A stretch of DNA of 52,654 nt from positions 1 to 52,654 of the forward strand of contig JAKAKL010000099.1 in NCBI GenBank assembly GCA_021824565.1, written 5' to 3'. The notes under the pieces were generated by a model that saw only the letters and a list, made by a program, of their open reading frames with translations, searched no databases and was not told the origin of the DNA. This document shows positions 46,668 through 49,731 of this stretch, piece after piece. The stretch's first letter is position 1; each line of letters starts with the position of its first letter. Source of the stretch: Bacteroidota bacterium (GTDB lineage: Bacteria > Bacteroidota > Ignavibacteria > Ignavibacteriales > Ignavibacteriaceae). A program made the translations under genes and the position numbers.

Positions 46668-48507
46668 TATTTACGTTATCCTTTAATTTTAATATTTCTG
46701 ACCTTGCTTCATCAAGATATAATGAATTGGGAAAATTTGCAAGCAGTTTTTCATAGGTTTCTACTGCTTTCTTAATATCGCCCTTACCATACTGGTAAAC
46801 TTTTGCCAGCAAATATAGGGCTTTATCTGAATAAATATTATTCTCTTTTTCGCCTGCAACTCTTTGAAGCTGCGCCGATGCGCTGTCAATATTATCGAGT
46901 GCAAGTTCCATTTCGGCAATTCTAAGCTCAGCGATGTTTTGAAGCATCAATTTCTGACGGTCGTTTGCCACAATTATATATTTATCAAGAGCTTCCTTAA
47001 ATTTATCTTGATCGACGAGAAATTCCGCCTGCCCAAACGCTGCAAGATTAGACGAATCATTCTGCGACGTGTTCAGCAATAAGGATAATTCAAGCGCTTC
47101 ATTAGCCGAGCTGTTTTTAGGATCGCTCGAAAGATCATTCAAATAATCCTTTGCTTTGTTTATGTTGTTTTGATAGAAACTTATTCTAGCCAGTTGATAA
47201 CTTGAAAAATTTCTTTCATCTTCGGGATACCTTCCGGCAGAAGCGACTTTCTGAAAATATTTAAATGCAGAATTAAGGTCTCCTCTTGCAAGATATGCTC
47301 TGCCCAAATCTTCATACGCTTTAGAAGTATAATCGGAAAGAGAGGCGTCTGTAAATAACTTATTAAATGATTCTAACGCGCCGTCAAGATCGTTGTAATC
47401 ATTCAATCTTATTTCGCCGACTTTAAGCAGCGCTTCGTTGGAGACATCCGAATTAGGATAGATCCTTTCTATTTCAGAATAAGCGTCAATAACTTTTTTA
47501 ATATCAGGCGAATTATTCTTTACCGGCATGAAATAAGGTTTCCAGTCCGGCTTAGTATTATTCTCTTCTTCCATCATTGCCTCAAGAGTCTCAGCATACT
47601 GAAGCTTTGCATAGGAAACAATCGGCGATTCGGGATATTTATCAATTACATCTTTCAAAACTTTTTCAGCAGTCTTATAAACTTTTTCGCCGTACAAAAA
47701 TCTTCCGAAATTATAAAGCTCGGCACCGTTGGATTTTTGAAACGCATCAATTTCCTTGTATAAAGAATAGGCATCATCGTATGACTTAGCTTCGACATAA
47801 AGTCTCGCAAGAAGATATTTAAACCCTACCTCATTATCATTGTCATATTTTTTTACTACACTAATCGCTTGATCCAATGCGCCGGGCTTGCGTATGAAGT
47901 TTAATATTCTCGTTTCGGCATTGCTAAACTGGTTCGGATCGCGCGAAATTATTAAGCAGTACTGCTCGGTCGCCTCTTTATAACGCATTGTAATGGAATA
48001 AAGGTTAGCAAGATCGTAAGCGAAATATTGCGGAGTTTGCGAAATATCCTCTCCGTCTTTAAGATATTCAATAGCTTTGTCAAAAGCTCTTAATTGAAGA
48101 GCGTAATTTGCAATCACTCTATAATTTACTTCACTCTTTGGGAAAGTTTTAAGGGCGTCATCCCAAGTCTGGAAAGCGCGGTTGTCATTTCCCTTAAGAT
48201 AATAAGTTGTGCCGAGCAATCCGACTAAGTTAATATCATTCGGCGAGCCGCTGATTCTATTTTCAATCAAGTTTATCGACGCGTCATAATTTTTGAGCTG
48301 GATATATGTTTGGTTCAGCATCTGAAAATATTCATAATTGTTCGGCTGCTCGTGATAAAGCTTTTCGAGAACCGGCATTGCCTTTTCATACATTCCTGCC
48401 TGAACAAAGCCTTGAGCAAGCATAAATTGATTATTTAAATCTACGCCGTTCTGAGCAAGTAGCACGGAAGTAAATAAGGATACTATTAGCAAAAACTTTT
48501 TAATCAT
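46660..48507 (-). CDS. Large exported TPR protein
   Basis: 615 residues. A signal peptide (cleavage after VLLAQ, about residue 19) is followed by about 12-14 TPR-like helical pairs across the whole length, for example [44 protein letters not shown] and [23 protein letters not shown]. The C-terminal repeats resemble the YbgF/BamD type. It is predicted to be a periplasmic or outer-membrane-associated scaffold. The overlap with clpX implies co-transcription, although the two act in different compartments. Confidence 0.88.
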
Positions 48508-48594
48508 ACAGTTTCAAAAATAGTAAAATAGAGAGCGGTTTCAAGGGAAGAAAAAATTGTCGGTTGATTTCGCTGCAGATTGAATAACGAATAT

Positions 48595-48885
48595 TTACTT
48601 ATTAATTCTATAACTGTTTGTGTGAATTAGATTGTAAGCCGTTCCATATAAAAGCCGGACAGGTGAAACTGCTTTAACAAAACACGTTTTCATATTATGA
48701 AGCTGCCCTAAAAATAATTTTTCAATAGGGACATGATTATTAAAGACTGATTTTCTTTTTACTAAAGCGGCATTATGCTCCGATGAACAACCTGTTCGGG
48801 TACTTAATACCACGTTAATAGGCGCTGCGGAATACCGCTTCAGGTGCATTGAATAACCTATTAGCATGTTCGAAATACCCATCAA
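48595..48885 (-). CDS. Doubtful ORF running into a degenerate repeat region
   Basis: A 96-codon ORF from TTG 48885 (ATG codons at 48882 and 48867). The product is rich in Tyr, His, Cys and basic residues, without a recognisable domain or signal peptide. Its 5' part coincides with units of the 22-bp repeat array, so coding status is doubtful. It may be a gene relic. The rest of the gap 48508-48594 holds nothing I can identify. Confidence 0.2.
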   Translation of the reverse strand: MMGISNMLIGYSMHLKRYSAAPINVVLSTRTGCSSEHNAALVKRKSVFNNHVPIEKLFLGQLHNMKTCFVKAVSPVRLLYGTAYNLIHTNSYRINK

Positions 48886-49016
48886 GGCGCTTTACTGCAC
48901 CCCTGGAGGTGGTTAGAATGATCTAAAAGCTGGTTTGGCGCGCCCCTAAGGGTGGTTGGAATGACCTATAAAGGTGGTTACCAGAACCCTTAGGGGTGGT
49001 CCTGATAACCTATAAG
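48886..49016. repeat. Degenerate 22-bp tandem repeat array, at least six units
   Basis: Units begin at 48886, 48908, 48929, 48951, 48973 and 48995; all are 22 bases long except the second (21). Five start with GGTGGTT or one base off it (GCTGGTT, GGTGGTC). Two unit types alternate: one ending CCCCTAAG-like (48886, 48929, 48973) and one ending ACCTATAA-like (48908, 48951, 48995). Junctions make small dyads such as CCCTTAGGGG and ACCTATAAAGGT. Weaker units in the same phase seem to continue left to about 48777. Confidence 0.75.
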
Positions 49017-49054
49017 TGTGTAAAATACTGCAATTTAGCTTAAAAGATAAGGTT

Positions 49055-49534
49055 TTACTGCTTTGATGCAGCAACAGTAGTTACAATCTTAGGAGCCTTT
49101 TCGTAAAAAGCCTCCATTTTTTCAACCACAGCAGCAAGACCGGGCACTTCAAACTTATTTTTTACACCTGCAGAATAAACTTTGCCGGTATTGTTCATAA
49201 TATCGCTTCCGAGCGCCATAATAGTATCTTCAACTGCGCGGTTAAGAGCAGCTATTTTTGGTTGAATTTGTTCCATCAAGTTGTAAAGCGCCCAGTCATC
49301 CAGGTAGCCCTGTCTATCAAACAGGCTGTTAAAGATAGCGGGGAAGTCTCTTACGACGCCGTAGGCAATTTCAGCAAGAGGTTTGTAAGCAGGACCCATC
49401 TTTACAATTGAAACGCGCTGGTCATCTGTTAAGTTCAAAAGGAAAGGGAGATTTGAACTTACATCGTTCAAAGATGATTGAACCGAATCGAACTTTTCGG
49501 AAGTAAGGACAGAGTGAATTAAGTCTTGTCCCAT
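49055..49534 (-). CDS. Small helical protein of unknown function
   Basis: 159 residues, no signal peptide or membrane helix. It looks all-helical, with LPFLLNLTDDQRVSIVKMGP, an aromatic central part (FNSLFDRQGYLDDWALYNL) and a C-terminal amphipathic helix (VVEKMEAFYEKAPKIV). GGTGAC lies seven bases before the ATG. A promoter with TTGACA is 90-130 bases upstream, and the gene is flanked by a terminator and the 22-bp array. I do not recognise the family; codon use looks like that of its neighbours. Confidence 0.65.
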   Translation of the reverse strand: MGQDLIHSVLTSEKFDSVQSSLNDVSSNLPFLLNLTDDQRVSIVKMGPAYKPLAEIAYGVVRDFPAIFNSLFDRQGYLDDWALYNLMEQIQPKIAALNRAVEDTIMALGSDIMNNTGKVYSAGVKNKFEVPGLAAVVEKMEAFYEKAPKIVTTVAASKQ

Positions 49535-49601
49535 TTTGTCACCTTTAGATTTATTGAAAAAGAAAAATTAATTTCCCAACAACAATATGCAGAGGGCGTA
49601 T

Positions 49602-49632
49602 ATAAAATACACAATAGAAGAAAGCTTGTCAA
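49602..49632 (-). promoter_or_regulatory. Promoter of the 49.1-49.5 kb gene
   Basis: On the minus strand TTGACA (49632-49627) is followed after 17 bases by TATTTTAT (49609-49602). Counted from TTG this is the same 20-base spacing as the other promoters, with a weaker -7 box. It leaves a leader of about 60 bases. Confidence 0.5.
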
Positions 49633-49699
49633 GAAAAATATGTAAGAAAGAAAAGATTTTTTAGAGACAAATTTCCGGTTAGAAAGCAAAAAGAGAATG

Positions 49700-49731
49700 A
49701 ATAAAAATAAGAGCCGCACTGTGCGGCTCTT
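49700..49731 (-). terminator. Terminator of the large T9SS cargo gene
   Basis: AAGAGCCGCAC (49709-49719) and GTGCGGCTCTT (49721-49731) make an 11-bp perfect stem; on the minus strand ATTTTTATT follows. It lies about 30 bases past the stop codon. Confidence 0.85.

Follow-up and report, generated by a model that had tools for sequence, protein, structure and literature searches.

A phased repeat array beside a gene of an unnamed family looks like one half of an undescribed two-part element of several bacterial phyla

Upstream of a TPR gene in an Ignavibacteriaceae genome (Bacteroidota bacterium, GCA_021824565.1) lies a row of imperfect repeats about two helical turns apart, which raises the question of whether such a row is a functional element or the worn remains of a satellite. 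The window analysed here is positions 1-52,654 of contig JAKAKL010000099.1 (forward strand). The key to its array is the neighbouring gene at 49055-49534, and the repeats look as if they belong to an undescribed two-part element of several bacterial phyla, in which a small gene is followed by a row of repeats.

The array spans 48771-49010 and, read on the minus strand, consists of 11 imperfect units with a mean spacing of 21.8 nt (21 or 22), as defined by unit-chain, lag and dyad tests. The units start at 49010, 48988, 48966, 48944, 48923, 48901, 48879, 48858, 48836, 48814 and 48792, and their minus-strand consensus is about GGTtaTtCaAAcCACCTttAaG. GGTGGTT-like heptamers are present at 48908, 48929, 48951, 48973 and 48995. 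The two alternating unit types proposed in the original prediction are borne out by Tandem Repeats Finder, which returns a period of 44 (48908-49000) together with a period of 22 (48907-48979); with lags of 43 and 44, they make the better preserved right part of the array (48901-49010, minus strand) a 44-bp higher-order repeat. Self-identity over 48900-49016 is 0.505 at lag 22 (shuffle mean 0.247; none of 1000 shuffles reaches 0.505) and 0.568 at lag 43, the latter supporting the alternating 44-bp order. An older, longer array had also been suspected, and it is real, as the weaker left part (48760-48906) is periodic too (lag 22 = 0.392, p 0.001) and the unit-chain model places 11 units with a score of 127, where none of 25 dinucleotide shuffles scores above 59.3. 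The proposed dyad is significant by column permutation (p 0.0005, 2000 permutations), and an inverted repeat with two 25-nt arms (48943-48967 and 48972-48996, 76% complementary) occupies 48943-48996. The array was rightly taken to be non-coding: its period is no multiple of three, and Pfam has no match for the open reading frame that runs into its left part (48595-48885, starting at TTG). Over 301 nt, the array folds better than shuffled sequence on either strand (z -3.05 and -3.72), and a search of 48300-49700 against Rfam 15 gave three chance-level matches, none near the cut-off or over the array core.

At the nucleotide level the array stands alone. Several intergenic copies of the repeat in the same or related genomes had been named as the sign of a functional element. 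A search of the window's own genome with a 291-bp array segment found zero further copies, and in 80 genomes of the family the array DNA had no relative, the best non-self match having an E value of 0.006 over 27 nt. Comparison with plasmids gave one chance-level record and comparison with phages three; among viral contigs there were 35 pattern matches, none of them a relative. The TPR gene on the other side of the array is retained in 78/80 family genomes, and in 29 relatives a lag scan of its upstream region, read as sequence for seven of them, gave no comparable array. In one relative (G017, L060), the intergenic site equivalent to that of the array carries a different inverted-repeat family (GTCCCGATGAAAATCGGGACGTATCGAAACAACC). 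Taken alone, the missing nucleotide conservation would mark the array as a decayed satellite by the reasoning of the original prediction, which had expected a neutral satellite to lack periodic conservation. That expectation holds for the nucleotides, but not for period, dyad and location on the 3′ side of one gene family, all of which are conserved.

That gene family has no name. The array directly flanks, on the 3′ side, the minus-strand gene at 49055-49534, which encodes an all-helical protein of 159 amino acids, and begins 44 nt past its stop codon; the gap (49011-49054, minus strand) has no terminator-like site, unlike many homologous loci. Upstream of the gene, a promoter-like site with 10/12 matches (49604-49632, minus strand) is weak, as the window contains six such sites where 3.0 are expected. 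Homologues of the 159-aa protein occur in 7/59 genomes (its own included), and a profile search located the gene, often in several copies, in 16/80 family genomes; across the phylum it is present in 26/296 genomes. Structure models of the window protein (pLDDT 91.3) and of a Bacteroidota member (90.9) are confident and alike, with one helix of 52 or 55 residues and shorter helices around it. Neither solved structures (PDB) nor a viral library gave a match to these models at E 0.001, and the best VIA-align result for the fold was Z 3.4 over 54 residues. Pfam scans of 10 and 59 members found no curated family common to them; among the 59, hits to one Pfam and three NCBIfam families were confined to one member apiece. 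Swi5 was set aside because it matched 1/10 members only (22.6 bits, cut-off 22.1), as was the deoxyribonuclease IV model, which matched that same member at 22.7 bits against a cut-off of 315, and phrog_2791, which matched the window protein only (E 0.0005). The HEPN/Abi RNase motif R-x(4-6)-H occurs in just 7/80 members (the best 80 of 319 relatives). Family and structure searches thus recognised no known DNA-binding fold or family in the partner protein, and its net charge is slightly acidic (median -2.5), which is unusual for a DNA binder and counts against plain sequence-specific binding.

Earlier scans had indicated that most homologues in family genomes have their own 21-nt-period array on the 3′ side. 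The association was counted in three sets of loci, with an array called at a unit-chain score of at least 80, a threshold set on the first sets and then applied to the held-out one. The family set comprises 32 loci, namely 36 rows minus four fragments (G010:C217, two rows of G019:C27, and G000:C8); an array lies 3′ of the gene in 26/32, the window included, and 5′ in 0/32. The database set, from a profile scan with one genome per species, comprises the best 80 of 319 relatives, five of which are also among the 32 family loci; here an array lies 3′ in 67/80 and 5′ in 1/80. The further, held-out set came from 296 phylum genomes, which gave 44 rows: seven were excluded as coming from the family to which the window belongs, and 5/37 of the remainder as duplicates, leaving 32 new loci with an array 3′ in 23/32 and 5′ in 2/32. 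No array reached the threshold at 13/80 database loci (one of which, L199, has no downstream sequence), 6/32 family loci and 9/32 further loci. Control tiles passed in 12/460 cases, and these include the window's own array and two coding repeats, also in the window, one of which encodes part of an IF2-like protein and the other part of a coiled-coil protein. The best period in the further loci is 21 in 18 and 22 in five, so the 22-bp period of the window is an ordinary variant. By record titles, which carry the depositors' names, the best 80 of 319 relatives belong to Ignavibacteria, Bacteroidota, candidate division KSB1, Pyrinomonadaceae, Planctomycetaceae and one Bacillota MAG. At two loci (L200, L388) a strong 21-nt array lies 5′ of the partner gene and none lies 3′. 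Elsewhere, two partner genes stand in tandem (L391 and L392, G214:C45:275884-276919), and only the last is then followed by a strong array (26 units).

The unit model was fed with 112 loci; for the anatomy of the arrays, five family loci that duplicate database loci were then left out. The 92 arrays retained have at least seven units and reach 1.5 times the shuffle maximum (71/80 database and 21/27 family loci); they contain a median of 12 units (7-24), with a mean spacing of 20.75-21.25 in 83/92. They start a median of 85 nt past the stop codon, and within 20 nt of it in 16/92. Dyad symmetry is significant (p<0.05) in 74/92 arrays and in 18/23 held-out ones, and in 0/7 coding 21-nt repeats. 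A terminator-like hairpin lies between gene and array in 33/67 of the arrays that start at least 35 nt past the stop codon, against 2/335 shuffles; past the array such hairpins occur in 4/92, against 2/460 shuffles. The -7 motif TAnnTTTG precedes the array in 1/51 cases (4 when shuffled). A terminator in between and no excess of the promoter motif suggest that the array often lies beyond the transcript of the gene, without a visible promoter of its own.

Pairing potential is 0.476 within units, 0.474 between neighbouring units and 0.454 between distant ones, so that pairing within the unit equals that with the neighbour and no one hairpin is preferred. An apparent signal of RNA hairpins with compensation (z 9.7) was discarded, as it was biased by the choice of axis; once that choice was removed, the difference between same-unit and neighbour pairing vanished. 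The gene strand was favoured by A-runs in the first 92 arrays (AAAA 774 against TTTT 362), a bias that was not repeated in 23 held-out arrays (109 to 114). Similarly, the distal unit AAGTGGGnnGGGGTACTT occurs in 23/92 arrays and 0/92 upstream regions, and 91% of 32 motifs fall past the 0.7 mark of the array; it was rejected as a general distal unit after appearing in 0/32 held-out loci.

While period and dyad persist, the sequence of the units turns over, fast but not instantly as far as these comparisons indicate. Mean unit similarity is 0.391 where the proteins are at least 70% identical and 0.325 where they are less than 40% identical. A profile measure rated L188/L189 and L157/L151 as dissimilar despite array DNA matched by blastn, and single-pair comparisons of arrays therefore rest on blastn rather than on that measure. 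By blastn among 14 pairs with similar proteins, L202/L195, L185/L165 and L149/L145 have no array DNA in common, with proteins that are 87-90% identical; such closely related proteins beside unlike arrays make simple sequence-specific binding unlikely. Array DNA is common at the distal end only in L170/L150 and L181/L169, and is still common to other pairs such as L150/L153, L163/L166, L188/L189, L193/L195 and L157/L158.

The same 14 pairs delimit the unit of homology. Its upstream boundary lies 15-200 nt before the start codon and its other boundary in the 3′ part of the gene or at or near the end of the array, also between copies from the same genome; two such same-genome pairs are alike at 84% over 1210 nt (L188/L189) and 91% over 826 nt (L193/L195). 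There are exceptions: L157/L158 remain alike for about 320 nt beyond the array, L174/L175 have other, non-colinear blocks in common, and L151 carries a block matching the array of L157 about 870 nt further from the partner gene. In L151, gene and array block stand apart as if by an insertion. Gene and array are nearly all that related copies have in common, which gives the pair the look of a translocatable cassette. This cassette measures about 1.0-1.3 kb and comprises a short upstream region, the gene for an all-helical protein of about 155 amino acids, in many cases a terminator-like hairpin, and finally 7-24 array units two helical turns apart (21 bp, 22 in some genomes); most of the arrays are dyad-symmetric. 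Cassettes stand at unrelated positions, often in several copies per genome, and the orientation of their neighbours is not conserved (next open reading frame 38 plus and 38 minus; previous 31 and 35). From these positions, movement of the cassette appears probable; no target duplication or recombinase was identified. A palindrome near GAATTACAAATTC recurs just past the array at L168, L169, L172, L176 and L181, and is perhaps a common neighbouring repeat or a preferred insertion place.

Arrays also occur apart from the gene. Samples from four gene-bearing genomes, 1.2 Mb in all, contain 16 period-21 intergenic arrays, 11 of them in the window's genome, and one is gene-linked and 15 are orphans. 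Five gene-lacking genomes, defined as family genomes without a partner match at 1e-5 in the profile search, contain none in a sampled 0.8 Mb; with the window's genome excluded, the comparison is five in 0.8 Mb against none in 0.8 Mb. The gene-bearing samples also show periods of 17 (twice), 19 (once) and 25 (twice), with 20, 22 and 23 never seen, and G031, which lacks the gene, has a few arrays whose period is not 21. Significant dyad symmetry is found in 8/15 orphan arrays. One orphan array recurs in the window's genome, where it occupies nine places on eight contigs when its own is counted, and in the copies inspected homology extends over the array and about 40 nt of adjoining sequence, not further; the arrays at these places (L253:1099-1519, L249:11826-12296, L304-L312) have a 42-bp higher-order repeat, similar left end units and variable length. 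Further individual cases were recorded. An array at about 27.4-27.9 kb of G071:C28 (L237) has no adjoining partner gene, and its units resemble those of the gene-linked C10 array. The arrays at the starts of G048:C31 and C95 (L238, L239), likewise with no adjoining partner gene, consist largely of AAGTGGGAGGGGGTACTT units, and in G048 the partner gene was not found at 1e-5 despite these AAGTGGGAGGGGGTACTT arrays. The orphan array at L254:8448-8774 lies about 205 nt from an open reading frame for a 107-aa protein with a Lys/Pro-rich tail like those of the partner family, possibly, to judge by that resemblance, a second array-linked family. Two orphan arrays (L250:3673-3987, L252:3627-3878) start at the stop codons of metabolic genes, named by eye as phosphomannomutase-like and phosphate acetyltransferase-like.

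How might gene and array work together? Two-turn spacing, dyads, terminators before many arrays, the missing promoter motif and the absence of pairing specific to one hairpin speak for a function of the array as double-stranded DNA. The explanation we put forward, tentatively and at somewhat less than even confidence, is a two-part cassette in which the array acts as duplex DNA and the protein forms a cooperative nucleoprotein array on it. Most likely, the protein would coat the array as duplex DNA, probably as a dimer on successive dyads along one face of the helix, and would build a cooperative assembly in principle like that of a centromere-binding protein on iterons. Half-site sequences would change in the manner of elements that read DNA shape or diversify the sites they recognise, and orphan arrays in the same genomes could be further places of binding or insertion. 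Besides the charge of the protein, its lack of a recognised DNA-binding fold or family and the unlike arrays beside closely related proteins, this explanation has against it the 15 orphan arrays away from the gene, of which only 8 have a significant dyad, and the loci with no array at the threshold (13/80, 6/32 and 9/32). Candidate end uses include segregation, nucleoid anchoring, and upkeep or spread of the element. The original prediction had offered phasing for cooperative, iteron-like protein binding or a folded RNA; helical phasing supports its DNA half, and the RNA hairpin found no specific support. The acidic charge of the protein and the turnover of the units leave room for recognition of DNA shape, for a role as RNA or for a selfish satellite. 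A bolder form of the duplex DNA reading, which we regard as rather unlikely, is a new class of bacterial mobile element whose small protein, of unrecognised fold, reads mainly helical phase and dyad symmetry in place of sequence, and maintains or spreads its own and orphan arrays as scaffolds or centromere-like sites.

Among the rival explanations, a transcript of chained 21-nt hairpins that binds or controls the partner, as in type III toxin-antitoxin systems, appears improbable, though worth keeping in view. The units are foldable (arm of about 8, centre of about 5, arm of about 8, with many A-rich centres), the window array folds better than shuffles on both strands, and the A-runs of the first 92 arrays lie on the gene strand; arrays that start within 20 nt of the stop codon (16/92) and the slight excess of adjacent-arm pairing over that of distant units (0.476 and 0.474 against 0.454) point the same way. 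Against this stand the absence of hairpin-specific pairing, the terminators before the array (33/67), the near-absence of the -7 motif (1/51), the failure of the strand bias in held-out arrays and the strict two-turn spacing, for which there is no obvious RNA reason.

The cassette and its arrays could instead be selfish, spread by a copying mechanism that favours 21-bp dyadic units, with the array useless to the cell and the protein serving the spread. Cassette-like ends of homology, several copies per genome, the orphan array found nine times in the window's genome (its inspected copies being homologous over the array alone), the patchy presence in 26/296 phylum genomes and the fast turnover of units all suit this account. 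Period, dyad and position are kept across phyla, however, whereas a purely neutral satellite needs less order, and no target duplication or recombinase was identified; we judge it rather unlikely. Absent nucleotide conservation and the worn left part of the window array would fit a plain decaying minisatellite unconnected with the gene, a reading already contradicted by the association with one gene family in three locus sets, against 12/460 tiles, and accordingly very improbable. Equally hard to credit is that the arrays code for heptad repeats, 21 nt being seven codons: at least one of the six frames stays open from end to end of the array in 35/92, but none does in 57/92, the period is 22 in the window and five held-out loci, and coding 21-nt repeats lack the dyad (0/7).

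The element matters because spacing and symmetry are kept while the sequence of the repeats changes. What looked like a junk satellite in one bacterial genome has a conservation recognisable by period and position, not by letters. Every member of the family gains a ready-made candidate ligand, so that its role becomes directly testable. If the bolder reading is true, phased arrays would serve several phyla as nucleoprotein scaffolds of the chromosome or as centromere-like sites.

A search of open-licence papers, with preprints and most subscription papers outside its range, found no description of such arrays, and the pairing of gene and array fits none of the classes compared; the defining features of type III toxin-antitoxin systems and of a REP/RAYT partner that were tested are absent. 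Type III systems (ToxIN, CptIN, TenpIN) likewise combine a small protein gene with a tandem array and a terminator between them, and in them the array precedes the toxin gene, with units of 34-50 nt in about 2-5.5 copies (PMC12373285). By comparison, the array here lies 3′ (67/80 of the best 80 of 319 relatives; 23/32 further loci) and 5′ in one and two cases, its units measure 21-22 nt with a median of 12 per array, and hairpin-specific pairing is absent. The partner has no supported family match, and its absence from the libraries used is compatible with a ToxN-type endoribonuclease. REP/BIME elements with RAYT (TnpA-REP) are likewise palindromic, dispersed intergenic units tied to one gene family. 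Dispersed palindromic intergenic units are indeed seen here (dyads in 74/92 gene-linked and 8/15 orphan arrays, and the nine-place array), but with strict two-turn spacing, long tandem arrays and no common unit sequence; in contrast to RAYT, no Y1/HUH transposase family was recognised in the partner, whose models are all-helical and whose members have no family-wide Pfam match. Unlike CRISPR-like arrays, the arrays inspected consist of contiguous imperfect units without spacers.

Plasmid replication iterons, of about 17-22 bp, are likewise tandem units about two helical turns apart; the arrays here differ in being mostly dyadic and several per genome, and their partner matches no initiator family in Pfam. 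In the F plasmid, sopC lies downstream of sopB and has 43-bp units. In plasmid centromeres of this and related kinds, the iterons on which a binding protein acts carry short inverted repeats (PMC5016525). Unlike them, the element described here has a partner without a recognised ParB-type family, stands in several copies on many contigs per genome, and has a unit sequence that is not common to its copies. What it has of a ParABS-like system is seen directly in array, position and dyads: a dyadic array adjoining the gene of a putative binding protein.
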